Assembly: GCA_017431625.1 (NCBI GenBank)
Contig: JAFRKQ010000031.1
Location: 1 to 52,770, forward strand
Length of the DNA stretch: 52,770 nucleotides
Direction of reading: 5' to 3'
Origin: a bacterium
GTDB lineage: Bacteria > Patescibacteriota > Microgenomatia > UBA1400 > PJMF01
The notes under the pieces were generated by a model. It did no database searches. It worked only from the letters and a program-made list of their open reading frames with translations, and was not told the DNA's origin. Positions 9,748 to 46,261 of the stretch are shown piece after piece (the stretch's first letter is position 1; the number at the start of each line of letters is the position of its first letter). A program made the position numbers and the translations under genes.

Positions 9748-9879
9748 GACGCGTATTATATCACACGCAAATGAACCACACTCCAGCAATCACAATTATT
9801 TGTTCTCAAATTGTACAAATTTTTTATACAATAATTACCAGCCTTGTGTACACAATTTTTACTCAATATTTCGACTAAT

Positions 9880-9921
9880 TTGTTAAACATTTGTTAAACG
9901 AATGTTTAACAAATATTAAAC
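9880..9921. repeat. 11-bp phased TTGTTAAAC array, copy A
   Basis: Four 9-mers at 9880, 9891, 9902 and 9913: two TTGTTAAAC, then ATGTTTAAC and ATATTAAAC, with an exact 11-bp step. It lies in the 306-nt gap 9748-10053, which otherwise holds only AT-rich DNA with CTGG and ACAAATTTACAGAC pieces also found beside other copies, and no gene. Confidence 0.85.
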
Positions 9922-17394: not shown

Positions 17395-17436
17395 TTGTTA
17401 AACGTTTGTTAAACAAATGTTAAACAGCTGTTTAAC
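17395..17436. repeat. 11-bp phased TTGTTAAAC array, copy B
   Basis: Units at 17395, 17406, 17417 and 17428 (two TTGTTAAAC, ATGTTAAAC, CTGTTTAAC) with an 11-bp step, in the convergent gap between ychF and the 17513 gene. ACCAGG lies just before it, as beside other copies. Confidence 0.85.
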
Positions 17437-25656: not shown

Positions 25657-25761
25657 TTAGATTTTACTCCTTTCAAGTATTATACCATAAATCTGGCACA
25701 TTCCTACACGCAATTTGTACCACCATTTTTGTCAATTTGTACACAAAAACTAAACACTACT

Positions 25762-25792
25762 TTGTTAAACACTTGTTAAACGTTTGTTTAAC
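25762..25792. repeat. 11-bp phased TTGTTAAAC array, copy C
   Basis: Units at 25762, 25773 and 25784 (TTGTTAAAC twice, TTGTTTAAC). TTGTACACAAAAAC precedes and CCTGGTTTTT and AAAATTACAGAC follow, all shared with other copies. In the gap between two minus-strand genes (25657-25892), which holds nothing else. Confidence 0.85.
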
Positions 25793-25892
25793 AAAAAAGC
25801 CTGGTTTTTCGTGACAAAAAATTACAGACCGAGTACAGAAATAATTTTCAGCACGTAATAAATGACTTGTATAATCTTAATTATCATTGTCC

Positions 25893-32095: not shown

Positions 32096-32126
32096 TTGTT
32101 AGACATTTGTTAAACGTTTGTTAAAC
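32096..32126. repeat. 11-bp phased TTGTTAAAC array, copy D
   Basis: Units at 32096 (TTGTTAGAC), 32107 and 32118 (TTGTTAAAC). TCTGGTTT precedes and TGTATACATTTTGTCTAC follows. The gap 31909-32237 is AT-rich and otherwise empty. Confidence 0.85.
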
Positions 32127-32237
32127 ACTGTATACATTTTGTCTACATTTTTTCTAACTATTTTCCAGGCGAAAAAATAAACGCAAAAACTGCAATATTT
32201 ATACAGTGAATTAATACTGTAATCGACCCTTCGATAT

Positions 32238-35186: not shown

Positions 35187-35217
35187 GCGTTTAACAGTTG
35201 TTAAACGTTTGTTAAAC
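35187..35217. repeat. 11-bp phased TTGTTAAAC array, copy E
   Basis: Units at 35187 (GCGTTTAAC), 35198 and 35209 (TTGTTAAAC), preceded by ATGTTCACATTTTGTACTCA as in copies F and G. In the divergent 500-nt gap 35106-35607, the rest of which is AT-rich DNA and the promoter of the next gene. Confidence 0.85.
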
Positions 35218-35405
35218 ACTTATTAGATTAAAAGCAAGCCAAATTTTACCAAACAAAAGACAAAAACACTTTATTGTTCACAAAATATCTACAAAATAAT
35301 GTCACTAATGCACAAAGTTATAGCCCTCATTAAGCTTGATCTGAGTGAGTTAAAATAATTACTCAAGATCATAGTTTTTTCCCAATACAACCCAAAAATT
35401 TCCTC

Positions 35406-39762: not shown

Positions 39763-39815
39763 ATACTTATATCCTATCAAATTTTATTATCACCGTCAAG
39801 AGGCAATTTCTCTTT

Positions 39816-39868
39816 TTGTTAAACACACGTTTAACAAACGCTGAACAGTCATTTAACAAATGTTTAAC
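39816..39868. repeat. 11-bp phased TTGTTAAAC array, copy H (five units)
   Basis: Units at 39816 (TTGTTAAAC), 39827 (ACGTTTAAC), 39838 (ACGCTGAAC), 39849 (TCATTTAAC) and 39860 (ATGTTTAAC), each 11 bp apart. The longest array, between the RHH gene and an HTH gene that diverge. Confidence 0.87.
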
Positions 39869-40643: not shown

Positions 40644-41396
40644 TCACTGGTCAATGGTCCGCCACTGGCCAGTGATTTTTTTGTAGACAAAAACCGGCAA
40701 AGCCAGTTGTCGGCGCCAACGGTGAGGCTCTTGCCACAAGCGATACAGCCACTCAAGATGAAATTTTTGCCAGAGAGTGGGAGCGCGCCGCAATCGACCA
40801 GTCAAAAAGTCAAAACTGCCGCCCACAGCCATAGCTAGACGCACTCGTGATTGGCGCAAAAGCTCACGATGATCAATTAACCACTGTTCTTGGGTGGGCG
40901 CGCCCAAAGCCACCAAGACAATTTCTGGCCGCAGATGGGCAATTAAAGCCCGAATCGCCTGCTCTTCTTGATCAGTCGGTTGGCGTGCTTGTTGGTAGCC
41001 AGGGGCATAAGCTAGATCGTAAGTCTGGCCGTTGGCGACAACACGCAAGCGTCCGTCTGGCGCTTGGTAGCGACCGCCCACGAGCAAAATTTTAAGATTT
41101 TGCTTGTGGGCAAGCGCCAAAAGCGCCAAACAAGTATCGGCTCCCGTCAGGCGCGCGGCCGCACCGCTGGCCCAGACGAGGCCCTGCCCGTCTGGGAGCA
41201 GGTAGTCGGCCGCGCGCAGGCAGTCATGAAAAGCCTCATCGCGCGCCGCCAAGACAATTTGCTCTGGATTGGGTGTCATTATGATGGTAGTCGACGCTGA
41301 TTGACGCGCCAAAAGTACGTGTAGCAACTCACCCCACTCTTGCCAGCTGACATCCACCAGTCGCAAATCCCAAAAGGCTTTAGTTTTGATTGACAT
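40644..41396 (-). CDS. WecG/TagA/CpsF family glycosyltransferase
   Basis: 250 aa, usual length for GT26. Motifs: TPNPEQIVLAARD (Asn and Asp near the active site), LLPDGQGLVWAS with the catalytic Asp, LVALGAPTQEQWL, and AVGGSFDFLTGRLRRAP. Transfers a sugar (ManNAc(A) type) to an undecaprenyl-linked acceptor for wall polymers or surface glycans. TGGTATAAT (TATAAT 41409-41404) is 7 nt before the ATG (leaderless). Confidence 0.88.
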   Translation of the reverse strand: MSIKTKAFWDLRLVDVSWQEWGELLHVLLARQSASTTIIMTPNPEQIVLAARDEAFHDCLRAADYLLPDGQGLVWASGAAARLTGADTCLALLALAHKQNLKILLVGGRYQAPDGRLRVVANGQTYDLAYAPGYQQARQPTDQEEQAIRALIAHLRPEIVLVALGAPTQEQWLIDHRELLRQSRVRLAMAVGGSFDFLTGRLRRAPTLWQKFHLEWLYRLWQEPHRWRRQLALPVFVYKKITGQWRTIDQ

Positions 41397-41424
41397 AAGA
41401 GGTATTATACCACGGCCCGCAAAT

Positions 41425-41622
41425 CACTACTTTTTGGCACGAGTTTTTGCGCAAAAACACTATTTTTCCATAGGAGTTTTGTGGCAAATTCACTACTTTT
41501 TGGTAGGAGTTTTTGGAGTAAAACACTATTTTTCCATAGGAGTTTGTTGACAAAAATGCATCAAATTGTCAGCAGTTTTGATAGCAATATTCATCAAATT
41601 AGCAGGAGTTGGTCAAATTAAA
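41425..41622. repeat. 33-bp tandem repeat array, left of the DUF4143 ATPase gene
   Basis: Six contiguous 33-bp units at 41425, 41458, 41491, 41524, 41557 and 41590. Units 1-4 start CACTA, have T5, then (A/G)GAG followed by T3-5 at positions 16-24 and end in A-rich DNA; units 5-6 keep the (A/G)GAGTT part. There are no unique spacers. The array ends 2 nt before the ATPase stop codon. Confidence 0.85.
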
Positions 41623-41624
41623 GG

Positions 41625-42944
41625 CTATTCGCCTGGAAAAGCATCATGATTTTTGAGCATAAAGGCGGCATACAAGGGCACAGCCTTGACACCATTTTCC
41701 AGACCAAAATTGCGCGCGGAGACACGGATGGAATACCTTGGCTGGTATTTTTCCCGATATACCCGTAAACTTTTGGACTGTTTATTACTTGATGCTTTGA
41801 CCTCCACGGGCACAATTTCGTCACCCCAAGTCAAGAGAAAATCTATCTCGGCGGTGTTATTGGACTTCCAGTAGTGCAAAGGCACGCCATTGGCGACCAG
41901 ATGTTGAGCGACATAGTTTTCGGCCAGAGCGCCTTTAGCCAAAAAATCCCGATCCAGCATGATGTCTTGGATTGGCACTTCAACCAGCGTGGACAACAAG
42001 CCTGTATCACTCAAATATAGCTTAAAAATATTGTTCTGTCGAAAAAACTTTAGCGGTCTTTTGACATTATTAACTAAAAAACATTGATATATCAAATTGC
42101 TAGACGCCAACCAATCAACAGCTGAGTATAATTCTCGCTTCCCTGCGCCCGCCTTTACTTGTCGATACTGAAAACGTTTGAGCTCGCTCGCCAACATTGA
42201 GGGAATTGCTTGATATACGCTTTCAATCCAGACCGACTCAGCCTTACTAGTGACAAATTTGTTCATATCTGACAAATATTGTTGAATCAAAGATTGGGAA
42301 AAGTGATTATTAAAGGCCATAATATCCTTGTCAGCAGCAATAAAATCATTTACTGCCTCTGGCATACCGCCAACCAATAAATATTCATGATACAACCGCA
42401 TTAATTTGTCATGAACCACACACTTTTGATTGGCAACAAAACAACGATGTATTTCCTCTGACCACATAGAATGATCGAGTGCCCACAAAAACTCTTCAAA
42501 ATCCAACGGATACATCTGGTAAATATCTACCTTCCCTACCGGAAATGACTTATTAAAATTCCTCAATTTGACACCAAGAAGGCTACCGGCACATAAAACC
42601 CGATACTTAGGCAACATTTCATCAAAATATTTTAATGAAATTATTGCTTGATCTGACTCTTGAATTTCATCCAAAAAAATTACCGTTTTCCCCGGAAGGA
42701 TGCGATGCTGACTTTCCAGCGAAAGTTCTTTTATTTTATCCTCAAATGACATTTTGCTCTCAAAAATATCACGAACTCTTTCTTGTTTCATCAAGTTAAA
42801 ATACACATAATCATTGAAGTACTCACGGCAATATTGCGTGAGTAAATAAGTCTTGCCCACCTGGCGCACACCAATAACCATTAGTGGTTTAGCGTTATTT
42901 TGATGTCGCCAATTTTCTAGTACTCGATAAAATTTTCTCTTCAT
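41625..42944 (-). CDS. AAA ATPase with DUF4143 domain
   Basis: 439 aa. N-terminal P-loop ATPase: GVRQVGKTYL (25-34) and Walker B VIFLDEIQ. The C-terminal DUF4143 part has GALAENYVAQHL, YWKSNNTAEIDFLL and VPVEVKAS, a PD-(D/E)XK-like core. The family is widespread and mobile in CPR and Bacteroidetes; its role is not settled. TGTATAAT (TATAAT 42957-42952) is 7 nt before the ATG (leaderless). Direct 33-bp arrays lie on both sides, and it is more AT-rich than its neighbours, suggesting acquisition as a cassette. Confidence 0.9.
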   Translation of the reverse strand: MKRKFYRVLENWRHQNNAKPLMVIGVRQVGKTYLLTQYCREYFNDYVYFNLMKQERVRDIFESKMSFEDKIKELSLESQHRILPGKTVIFLDEIQESDQAIISLKYFDEMLPKYRVLCAGSLLGVKLRNFNKSFPVGKVDIYQMYPLDFEEFLWALDHSMWSEEIHRCFVANQKCVVHDKLMRLYHEYLLVGGMPEAVNDFIAADKDIMAFNNHFSQSLIQQYLSDMNKFVTSKAESVWIESVYQAIPSMLASELKRFQYRQVKAGAGKRELYSAVDWLASSNLIYQCFLVNNVKRPLKFFRQNNIFKLYLSDTGLLSTLVEVPIQDIMLDRDFLAKGALAENYVAQHLVANGVPLHYWKSNNTAEIDFLLTWGDEIVPVEVKASSNKQSKSLRVYREKYQPRYSIRVSARNFGLENGVKAVPLYAAFMLKNHDAFPGE

Positions 42945-42966
42945 AATCGATATTATACAACAGATT

Positions 42967-43098
42967 CACTACTTTTTGGCACGAGTTTTTTGGTGAAAAC
43001 ACTACTTTTTGGTAGGAGTTTTTTGAGTAAAACACTACTTTTCCATAGGAGTTTTTTGACAAAAATGCATCAAATTGGTAGAAATTTTAATAATGGGT
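42967..43098. repeat. 33-bp tandem repeat array, right of the DUF4143 ATPase gene
   Basis: Units at 42967, 43000, 43033 and a degenerate one at 43066, in the same orientation and with the same period as the left array. The junction GACAAAAATGCATCAAATTG is common to both arrays (41549 and 43058). An inverted piece AAAAACTCCTA follows at 43146. Confidence 0.85.
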
Positions 43099-43178
43099 GT
43101 AATTATATTGATAGATACAGGTTTTTAATATTTGTTTACTTGTAGAAAAACTCCTACTTGCAGCTGGCAAAAATGTGG

Positions 43179-43439
43179 TATAATAGACAACGAAACCAAC
43201 AATAATTAGTTGCAGAAGGGAGAAGCTGAGAGATAAGGATGAAGTTGCCAAACCAATAAAAACATAGTTTAGATGGGAATCGAATGCAAAAAGAAGCGGG
43301 GGACGCAATTTGGCTCTTAGCAAAGCATTTGATTTAGGTAGCCTTATAGGCTTCTCTTCAGACTAGTTTTGTTGGTTTCGGGTCAGAAAGTCGCCCGTTT
43401 CTTTTTGCCTCAAACCGCTTGCAACCACAGAAAGGTGCT
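43179..43439 (+). promoter_or_regulatory. promoter and structured leader of the FISUMP-type gene
   Basis: TGTGGTATAAT (TATAAT 43179-43184) predicts a start at 43191. The first 12 nt of the RNA (43191-43202, CGAAACCAACAA) are perfectly complementary to 43369-43380, closing a ~165-nt loop with hairpins (for example AGCCTTATAGGCT, 43350-43362) and a 15-codon ORF (43273-43320). The SD GAAAGG precedes ATG 43440. Same plan as the leaders of the two glycine-rich relatives. Confidence 0.65.
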
Positions 43440-44417
43440 ATGACGAACTGGTCACGATGGCTTATCTTTTTGGTAATGCTAACAACATATGTCTCTCCCA
43501 TCTGCATGAAAATAGGCGCGCACAGTGTCATCCACGCTGCCAAGGGCAACACATCCATGAAGCTCAAAGATGTGGCGCTGGGCAAAGTGGTACAGGTGGG
43601 AGAACTCAAATTCGTCAAGGTAGGAGATAATCAATATTTGGCCACCAATACATGTCCGCCTGGAAAAATGCTCGCTCCATTAGCTCACGATTGTGTAACG
43701 ATTCAGGAGTATGGTTGTAGCCAGCCAATTGGTACCATGCAAACTTGGAATGGTTGTACTAGCGCGAGTACACCAACAGGCACTAATTATTCCCTAGATA
43801 TCTGTCTAATGGATGAGCGCGACGGCAAGACTTATCAAGTGCGCAAATTTGCCGATGGTCATTGCTGGATGGTAACTAATTTAGCCTATGGACCTGGGTG
43901 TCAAAAAACCTCATTTAATAAAAGCAATGTAAGTCAAGTAGATGTAGTTGGCCCTGGACTTTATGGTGAATGTCGTTGGGATGAAACCAAGTCACTCAGC
44001 CTTACCTATAAATATGGCTATATGTACAATTGGCAAGCGCTGATACAAGATCCTCAAGCTTATTATGGTAATAATTATCAGCCATCAGAACCAGTACAAG
44101 GCATTTGCCCACATGGCTGGCATGTACCGCGAGGCAATACTAACAGCGAATATAAAGCTTTATATGAAGCTATTGGTCAACAAATATCATTCTTCTCTAC
44201 CGGTGGCAATTTTTTAATCGCTTTAGCCGGTCAAATTAGAGACACTAATGGGAACATTATAAGTCAAGACGCAAATGTTCAATTGTTCACTTCTACTCAG
44301 GGCAGTGGTAATAAAACCAATGCTGCTTATTATTGGTGGTTGCCACAAAGAAATTATGAATACTTAGACGATGGTAAATATTTTGGCGGTGCCCTGCGTT
44401 GTATTCAGGATTATTAA
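43440..44417 (+). CDS. secreted FISUMP-type protein (modular family, member 3)
   Basis: 325 aa. Signal peptide (about 1-35, ending IHAA), then the family N-terminal module (GNTSMKLKDV, GKVVQVGELKFVKVG, NQYLATNTCPPG). The rest is a Fibrobacter-succinogenes-major-paralogous-type domain (TIGR02145-like): DERDGKTYQVRKFADGHCWM, NLAYGPGC, YMYNWQAL and GICPHGWHVPRG, with a second half ending in GALRCIQDY. SD GAAAGG decides the start. It shares the N-module but not the C-terminal domain with the glycine-rich members. Confidence 0.82.
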   Translation: MTNWSRWLIFLVMLTTYVSPICMKIGAHSVIHAAKGNTSMKLKDVALGKVVQVGELKFVKVGDNQYLATNTCPPGKMLAPLAHDCVTIQEYGCSQPIGTMQTWNGCTSASTPTGTNYSLDICLMDERDGKTYQVRKFADGHCWMVTNLAYGPGCQKTSFNKSNVSQVDVVGPGLYGECRWDETKSLSLTYKYGYMYNWQALIQDPQAYYGNNYQPSEPVQGICPHGWHVPRGNTNSEYKALYEAIGQQISFFSTGGNFLIALAGQIRDTNGNIISQDANVQLFTSTQGSGNKTNAAYYWWLPQRNYEYLDDGKYFGGALRCIQDY

Positions 44418-44440
44418 CTTTGCAGTCTAACAACTTTTCT

Positions 44441-44489
44441 TATTTCGTTTCGTTCGCTCCCACACTCAGGTGTAGGAGCGAAAATTTTA
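44441..44489 (+). terminator. conserved 3'-UTR motif and hairpin of the 43440 gene
   Basis: TATTTCGTTTCGTTC (44441-44455) as after both relatives, then the stem CGCTCC..ACAC/GTGT..GGAGCG (44455-44480). GTTTCG (44447-44452) is complementary to the RNA 5' end CGAAAC (43191-43196). The T-run is weak. Confidence 0.7.
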
Positions 44490-44521
44490 TTGTATAAATT
44501 TCTGTACATATTTTTTGATCA

Positions 44522-44541
44522 GTGTTTAACAAATGTTAAAC
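44522..44541. repeat. 11-bp phased TTGTTAAAC array, copy I
   Basis: Units at 44522 (GTGTTTAAC) and 44533 (ATGTTAAAC), then a decayed third. Preceded by TGTACATATTTTTTGATCA, similar to the sequence before copies E-G. Confidence 0.7.
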
Positions 44542-44695
44542 GTTTTTATCATATTTTAAGATACAAACAAAATACAAAAATAAAAAATTATTGATCTAAA
44601 ATCTGTACACAAAATTTACTCAATAGCCTTCATCACCCGAAAGTTTAGATAAGATTTATTTTCGGGTTCTTTACAGGTGTGGTATAATAATACAG

Positions 44696-46261
44696 ATGCC
44701 AAAAAAAGCCAAATATACGAGTGAACAGCTACGAGCCCAATACCCCATCTTCACTTATCTTAAGTATAACTGGCAATTGATTGATCATGATGACGGCCAG
44801 TGCGACCTTGAACTTACTTTTGTTTACACTCTGGGAGACAGTTATACTTTTACACATCACGTTACCTTATACCAGGTGGAGCGCCAGCATCTTGAAAGGC
44901 AGCAAGCAGGATTAATAGACAATCTCGCCTTTCATCTCGGGATTGTGGAAGGATTTTCTTACTGGAAACTAACAGCTTCACCTCAGTATGTTATCGCCGC
45001 TGGCAGCCTGAGCTCAAGACAACTGCAATACTGGCATGAATGGCTCATCAATGGCATGAGTGAATACTTTTATGTCAATCAAATTGATTTCACCGCTCCG
45101 GATTTTGTGACTATCACGAATGCTCAACCAAAGCCAGAGGAACGTGGCTGGACCACCTATCATTTGCGTCCTTCACATCAAGGCAGACACAGTCTGGTCA
45201 ATCTTGGCGGCGGTAAGGACTCGGCAGTGATGCTCGATTTACTAGGAAAAGCCGGCGAAAAATGTGGTGCTTTCATTATTGCCCCCAATTCGCCCGCCGC
45301 CGAGACTCAAGCGACCTTAGCATCCTTACCAATTCATCGTGCTCGACGAGTATTTGATCCTCAATTGCGACAACTTAACGATCAAGGATTTCTCAATGGT
45401 CACGTACCCTTTAGCGCCAGCGTCGCTTTTATCGACTTACTAGCAATGGTGGCTTACGACTATAATTACGCCCTTGTGGGCAATGAGGCTAGTGCCGATG
45501 AGGTGAGTCTCACTTGGCTGGATCAACCAATCAATCATCAATATTCAAAGAGCACAAAATTTGAACGGTCATTTTTTGAATACCGTAGAGAATATTTGAT
45601 CAATAGAGTTGAATATTTCTCATTTTTACGTATTTTTAATGAGTTTCAGATTGCGCACATTTTTTGTTCAAACCCCAAATACTGGACAGTAACCCGCTCT
45701 TGCAATCGTGGCCAAAGGCAAAATATCTGGTGTCATCAGTGTGCTAAGTGTCTTTTCGTTTATTTGCTACTAGCTGCTCACTTGCCACTAAAAACTGTGG
45801 CTAGCGACATCTTTGACCACGATCTTTTGGACGACGAGCGGCTAGCACCACTATTAGAAGAGCTTTTGGGCCTGCGTCCTAGCAAGCCACTGGAATGTGT
45901 GGGTACGCGCGAAGAGTGTCAAGTGGCTTTTTACCTTGTGTACACAAAATGTGTACAAGAGTCTCAGCCATTACCAAAATTAATTGCTCGCTATTATAGG
46001 CAGATTTTACTACTGCACAATGATTGGCTCTCTTTAGTAGACAAATTGTATACATTTTTTAACTACCAGGCTTTTAAGCAATCAGAAATGGCCCAGTTGC
46101 GCACCGTCCCAGCACCGTGCCATTTTCTTATGGCTGATTGGGCCGTACCTATCGTCTTAGCCGCACACGAACAAGTGCTGCACGACTCCTACGAAATCTT
46201 GAAAAATCTATATGAAGAACAATTACCAAAAGTCAAGAGTAAAAAGGACGGGGACGTATGA
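44696..46261 (+). CDS. murL: UDP-MurNAc-L-Ala-L-Glu epimerase MurL
   Basis: 521 aa. A PP-loop-like ATP motif NLGGGKDSA (169-177) and the later segment SNPKYWTVTRSCNRGQR with WCHQCAKCLF fit MurL, which turns the L-Glu of UDP-MurNAc-L-Ala-L-Glu into D-Glu using ATP. The next gene, murD2, makes that substrate, and the two overlap by 4 nt, as in Xanthomonas and other bacteria with this route. TATAAT (44683-44688) is 7 nt before the ATG (leaderless). Confidence 0.9.
   Translation: MPKKAKYTSEQLRAQYPIFTYLKYNWQLIDHDDGQCDLELTFVYTLGDSYTFTHHVTLYQVERQHLERQQAGLIDNLAFHLGIVEGFSYWKLTASPQYVIAAGSLSSRQLQYWHEWLINGMSEYFYVNQIDFTAPDFVTITNAQPKPEERGWTTYHLRPSHQGRHSLVNLGGGKDSAVMLDLLGKAGEKCGAFIIAPNSPAAETQATLASLPIHRARRVFDPQLRQLNDQGFLNGHVPFSASVAFIDLLAMVAYDYNYALVGNEASADEVSLTWLDQPINHQYSKSTKFERSFFEYRREYLINRVEYFSFLRIFNEFQIAHIFCSNPKYWTVTRSCNRGQRQNIWCHQCAKCLFVYLLLAAHLPLKTVASDIFDHDLLDDERLAPLLEELLGLRPSKPLECVGTREECQVAFYLVYTKCVQESQPLPKLIARYYRQILLLHNDWLSLVDKLYTFFNYQAFKQSEMAQLRTVPAPCHFLMADWAVPIVLAAHEQVLHDSYEILKNLYEEQLPKVKSKKDGDV

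Follow-up and report, generated by a model that had tools for sequence, protein, structure and literature searches.

Helically phased 33-bp arrays at the promoters of PDC-S01 (AAA_14-DUF4143) genes are probably private autoregulatory operators

Iterons, with a spacing of roughly 20-22 bp, and Orc/Cdc6 origin boxes are arranged in tandem and in helical phase, next to the gene of the initiator-like protein that binds them. At toxin-antitoxin and defence operons, autoregulatory operators form repeats or palindromes at the promoter of the gene that encodes the presumed binder, and CRISPR arrays place short regular repeats near a defence gene. The arrays described here share these features, and the gene between them belongs to PDC-S01, which is reported to rank fourth in frequency among prokaryotic defence types and whose make-up of an ATPase and a PD-(D/E)XK domain has been described; antiviral activity is unvalidated for most such candidates (PMC12988326). 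The window, i.e. the whole stretch of 52,770 nucleotides of patescibacterial DNA that was analysed, encodes a protein with both a full-length match to a PDC-S01 model and this ATPase/PD-(D/E)XK make-up.

Within the window, a 20-bp core ACTCSTRYSRAAAARTAGTG, read on the minus strand as is the gene, is found seven times (0.13 matches expected in shuffles), and both direct reading and a TRF/repeat search place the cores of either array exactly 33 bp apart. Six left and four right units in direct orientation with an exact 33-bp period had been claimed in the original prediction; this description holds, the left array comprising four intact and two decayed units and the right array three intact units and one decayed unit. 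Likewise confirmed are the junction common to both arrays, the end of the left array 2 nt from the stop codon of the ATPase gene and the position of the right array, estimated at about 10 nt from the -10 box, with 9 nt actually separating its proximal unit from the TATAAT (Table 1). The left array lies 15 nt from the TATAAT of the wecG-type gene, immediately upstream in the reading direction of that gene. Hence, each array sits close to a promoter in the same way, and both are oriented like the two minus-strand genes. The ATPase gene shows no good -35 element, the -35 position being occupied by the proximal array unit, as is also the case at the wecG promoter. Some cores contain a small dyad with covarying arms, which reads CTAC-N6-GTAG in one unit and CTAT-N6-ATAG in another. 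Outside the two arrays, the 1.14-Mb assembly contains no exact copy of the core, and a search of 41 other genomes of the family yielded no array and nothing above the control pattern. Divergence of core and linker between the two window copies does not differ significantly (p = 0.09), and we therefore do not claim selection on the downstream copy.

Table 1. Positions of the features discussed, in window coordinates unless a contig (C) or locus (L) is named.
Feature	Position	Strand	Basis
AAA_14-DUF4143 protein gene, 439 aa, PADLOC PDC-S01	41625..42944	minus	Pfam, PADLOC, conservation, AlphaFold2
WecG/TagA/CpsF glycosyltransferase gene, promoter abuts left array	40644..41396	minus	Pfam
Left (downstream) array, 4 intact 33-bp units, upstream of wecG promoter	41425..41543	minus	direct reading and repeat search
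Left-array cores ACTCSTRYSRAAAARTAGTG	41425-41444, 41458-41477, 41491-41510, 41524-41543	minus	
Two decayed left-array units	about 41557-41589, 41590-41622	minus	direct reading
Right (upstream) array, 3 intact 33-bp units	42967..43052	minus	direct reading and repeat search
Right-array cores ACTCSTRYSRAAAARTAGTG	42967-42986, 43000-43019, 43033-43052	minus	
Decayed fourth right-array unit	about 43066-43092	minus	direct reading and repeat search
Junction CAAAAATGCATCAAATTG common to both arrays	41551-41568 (left), 43060-43077 (right)	plus	
TATAAT -10 box, ATPase gene	42952..42957	minus	sequence
TATAAT -10 box, wecG-type gene	41404..41409	minus	sequence
Interval missing from relative G003: ATPase gene, both arrays, second gene (43419-44417)	41397..44695		
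Array units of the paralogues: AAAAGTGTGTAAAAT, AAAAAGTTGCAATTTCAATCTAAAAGTGGGCAT, TTCATTTTGTGAAAAA, GATTTGGGGATTTTGGGCAAAT, TTACATTTCGTGAAAAA	L002, L003, L004, L005, L006 (in this order)		
Orphan array before Fic gene	C7:10557-10669 (L152 10557-10669)		
Orphan array before ParE-type toxin operon	C11:5680-5764 (L153 5680-5764)		
Orphan array near Fic operon	C28:2680-2760 (L157 1681-1761)		
TTTGTTAAACA sites	9879-9913, 17405-17415, 25761-25795, 32117-32127, 35208-35218, 39815-39825, 44523-44533		
GC-rich repeat TGCGGAGCTCGGTGCACAGCTCGGCA	L159 1400-1457 and 13001-13075, L160 12733-12792, L161 15778-15835, L164 18956-19017		

The product of the gene between the arrays, whose neighbours in the window are wecG, a gene for a Fib_succ_major protein and a Mur ligase gene, matches the Pfam families AAA_14 (E = 4.7e-25) and DUF4143 (E = 3.1e-31), both above the curated cut-offs. 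The PDC-S01 model PDLC04786 of PADLOC is matched over residues 1-433 (E = 4.8e-145), and the paralogues match PDC-S01 models over their full length as well. In an alignment of 83 sequences, G25, GK30-31 and DE92-93 (Walker A/B), together with E342, E381 and K383, are invariant and D368 is kept in at least 90%; E342, D368 and E381-x-K383 are the residues of a PD-(D/E)XK-type C-terminal domain. The AlphaFold2 model (mean pLDDT 94) consists of an AAA+ ATPase, a winged helix (about residues 234-311) and a PD-(D/E)XK nuclease domain, and the best-matching folds in the PDB are those of the Walker ATPase 2qen and of Cdc6/Orc1 or ORC in structures with origin DNA. The predicted winged helix and the fold matches, which include Cdc6/Orc1 bound to origin DNA, would be in keeping with binding of the protein to its own arrays. 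The Cdc6/Orc1-like matches, the conserved nuclease-type residues and the iteron-like phasing could also speak for arrays that take part in the defence reaction itself, whether the ATPase-nuclease lands or is stored on them or whether they work like the iterons of an initiator-type protein. We consider this quite unlikely, as the position of the arrays is tied to the promoter, the scanned window proteins include none for replication and an exact scan of viral contigs returned no match to the window unit.

The genome contains six genes of the subfamily, the other five encoding proteins 28-37% identical to the window protein. All six have their own 33-bp array upstream of the promoter, and the unit sequence is different each time (Table 1). 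A scan of the gene neighbourhoods and of ten 20-kb control stretches found 13 lag-33 arrays (score of at least 14) in the 120 kb with these genes versus none in the 200 kb of control DNA from the same genome. The lag-32 matches in the control DNA stem from a dispersed GC-rich repeat, TGCGGAGCTCGGTGCACAGCTCGGCA, which has a 16/32-bp period and is unrelated to the arrays. A seventh DUF4143 gene of the genome, belonging to another PDC-S01 subgroup (PDLC04787), is located directly upstream of the L006 gene (L006 34-1107).

Using a profile of the six genes, we picked 80 loci from the genome collection on protein similarity alone, of which 79 were usable, and scored the 300 bp upstream of each gene for repeats at lags of 32/33 bp. 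Hereby, 49 of the 79 homologues reach the threshold score of at least 10, although the loci are not fully independent (L092 and L095, for example, are 84% identical), as compared to a mean of 1.18 for other lag pairs and 1 in shuffles. The proposal that such arrays should be found beside DUF4143 genes in related genomes is thus borne out, with about one case expected. Among other genes at the same loci, only 7 of 349 upstream regions reach the threshold. A lag of 33 scores best at 32 loci and a lag of 32 at 13 loci, and the homologues span Clostridia, Bacteroidota, Chlamydiae, Elusimicrobia, an archaeon and others. Copies on plasmids and phages reach the same threshold in seven of nine cases. 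Elsewhere in the order there are three clear arrays (L054-L056), and in Patescibacteria outside the order an array is present at four of five loci, with three different arrays within one genome. About 38% of the homologues show no clear 32/33-bp array within 300 bp upstream. ATPase loci of this kind had been named as a potential refutation; they weaken the link between array and gene without overturning it, and we count them against the operator reading favoured below.

Of 25 more distant DUF4143 genes, 5 reach the threshold; several of these distant genes have, in place of an array, a dyad over the -35, for example AGTTTTCATTGACAGTGAAAACT. The upstream regions of L024, L027, L030 and L034 have in common a dyad AGTTTTC...GAAAACT centred on the -35. 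The -35 dyad at some distant genes suggests self-regulation there as well.

The array is usually located just upstream of the -35 in Clostridia, whereas at several Bacteroidota loci the units run across the promoter up to the start codon. The helically phased A-tracts just upstream of the -35 at many Clostridia loci would suit a phased A-tract or UP-like promoter element, to which RNA polymerase or some general host factor, and not the ATPase, would bind. Yet a host factor would not need a different unit sequence for each paralogue in one genome, such arrays are missing from other genes at the same loci and from the 200 kb of control DNA, and the Bacteroidota units extend over the promoter itself. 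A role as a general promoter element thus appears highly improbable.

Aligned units share a variable left part of 5-8 nt, followed by an A-tract and then TG(T/C)R. The corresponding half-site AAAA(N)DTG(T/C) occurs at 10.8 per kb, mostly in gene orientation, versus 0.9-1.3 per kb in controls, i.e. an approximately twelvefold enrichment. In Acinetobacter and Vibrio the half-site forms an inverted repeat within each unit, e.g. ACACTTTTATGCGCATAAAAGTGT. Unit similarity tracks protein similarity, albeit weakly (Mantel rho 0.23, 3 of 500 permutations). In a sliding-window covariation analysis no protein window was conspicuous for tracking the unit sequence and the winged helix was not singled out, which we also count against the operator reading.

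The sites are located at the gene's own promoter and are private to this gene, as is typical of an autoregulatory operator. We favour the reading that the arrays are private operators of the adjacent ATPase gene, bound and autoregulated by the PDC-S01 protein, and assign to it a probability of roughly 0.6. Judged from the comparison of loci, the binder is most likely the gene's own product, because a host factor would not explain a private sequence together with a shared core. Two suggestions of the original prediction gain strong comparative support in this way: that protein binding is more likely than spacers and that the gene may recognise the repeats. Arrays accompany the ATPase subfamily across phyla, while the unit sequence differs between paralogues in one genome. 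According to the proposed mechanism, the PDC-S01 protein, probably as an oligomer, would use its winged helix to bind the A-tract/TG(T/C) core in every unit. With a spacing of 32-33 bp, i.e. three turns, all units would face the same side of the DNA helix. Binding beside, over or just after the promoter would then set expression of the protein's own gene. We infer an action on transcription, its sign and a role in defence, whereby repression is more likely than activation. Most likely, autorepression would keep a potentially harmful ATPase-nuclease at a low level until an invader titrates or activates it. The Bacteroidota layout, with units over the promoter, fits repression best. The Clostridia layout upstream of the -35 fits either sign, and its equal suitability for activation counts against the operator reading.

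The original prediction had described the gene as enclosed by arrays and had considered a mobile or duplicated cassette. A second, downstream array, about 1.5 kb from the first, exists at four of the six loci of the genome (L001, L002, L004 and L006) and is almost never seen elsewhere, i.e. at about 80 other loci and five distant Patescibacteria loci. Enclosure applies to these four loci, is not a general rule and is secondary. In a cassette, the arrays would be recombination or integration sites; a unit of array and gene would enter an array or duplicate to yield array-gene-array, and recombination between the arrays would remove the gene and leave an orphan array behind. The identical geometry of direct copies at the four loci and the three orphan arrays of Table 1 could be read in this manner. 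So could a gene-free locus, which had been proposed as a check and is found in the relative G003: there, the wecG homologue directly adjoins a divergent homologue of the window gene at 44696-46261. This locus also lacks any array, so that, contrary to the single array expected at an empty site, the arrays were not a pre-existing target there. Since gene and arrays are both absent from G003, the arrays, the ATPase gene and the next gene were either gained here or lost in G003, the direction not being polarised. This shows that gene and arrays come or go as one block and supports loci that come and go, whereas a dedicated mobility mechanism is not demonstrated by G003. Moreover, the downstream copy is nearly missing elsewhere, no recombinase or other mobility gene was found beside the gene, and the two window copies have diverged, speaking against a recent event. 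The suggested cassette is supported in part, and the recombination model as a whole is improbable. Acinetobacter and Bacteroides plasmids, searched for clean gene-free sites, gave no simple result.

Arrays without an adjacent ATPase gene, the second potential refutation, occur at the three orphan sites; the link to the gene family is again not overturned, and both these arrays and the second window array, which faces a glycosyltransferase gene, count against the operator reading. They raise the possibility of a small regulon, in which the ATPase would control toxin or defence-candidate genes nearby (Fic, ParE, wecG) via extra arrays. One and the same CATTTYGTGAAAAA unit stands in front of three genes, namely the L004 ATPase gene, the Fic gene that immediately follows it and a further Fic gene about 6 kb away. 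On a different contig, a Fic operon is preceded at about 0.35 kb by a related array. PADLOC candidates are among the matches of two Fic proteins, and both window arrays abut -10 boxes. However, the window array has no other site in the genome and wecG is not a defence gene. Although the C11 orphan array follows the L002 ATPase gene at a distance of about 0.2 kb, its unit is a different one and is found nowhere else. A regulon, which would be compatible with the operator explanation, is therefore rather unlikely.

An extension of the operator reading would be that PDC-S01 is a self-addressed defence family, in which a private phased array serves as an address that co-diverges with the protein; we put this forward tentatively and regard it as unlikely. 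If true, many paralogues could share a genome without cross-talk, and invading DNA or replication could draw the protein off its array by titration or displacement, thereby releasing the ATPase-nuclease. On plasmids, the gene adjoins a type III restriction-modification system in Glaesserella (L168) or HipA toxins in Parabacteroides (L169), neighbours that are compatible with, and fit, a role in defence.

Two further elements were seen in the window. On the plus strand, positions 43140-43410 hold a single AAAAACTCCTAC half-site in front of a TATAAT box and of a leader that may be structured, its inverted repeats lying at 43191-43202/43369-43380 (perfect) and 43286-43304/43390-43408; a Fib_succ_major gene is located downstream, and no Rfam match was found. 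The sequence TTTGTTAAACA occurs nine times in the window (0.07 expected), partly as 11-bp tandem or inverted copies and mostly in intergenic regions, and is another promoter-associated repeat of the same genome.

The conserved promoter array gives each PDC-S01 protein a predicted DNA ligand and thus offers a direct handle on a very common family. It may serve as a signature in searches for additional members, for orphan sites and for possible regulons, and paralogues with different sites in one genome represent a natural data set for specificity. Compared to known systems, a CRISPR array is rejected on anatomy: the 33-bp period is made up of a 20-bp core and a linker of about 13 bp, the core varies between units, and there are neither unique spacers nor cas genes. 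An iteron replicon is rejected on the same grounds, with a spacing of 32-33 bp, no plasmid context and no replication gene in the set of scanned window proteins; in addition, site sequences here diverge between paralogues of one genome. While the PDC-S01 family as such is known, a conserved, phased and gene-private array or operator of this family is, as far as shown by the open-access literature searched, undescribed. From the autoregulatory operators known at toxin-antitoxin and defence operons, the present arrangement differs in that a single ATPase-nuclease would regulate itself, without a separate gene for a DNA-binding partner.
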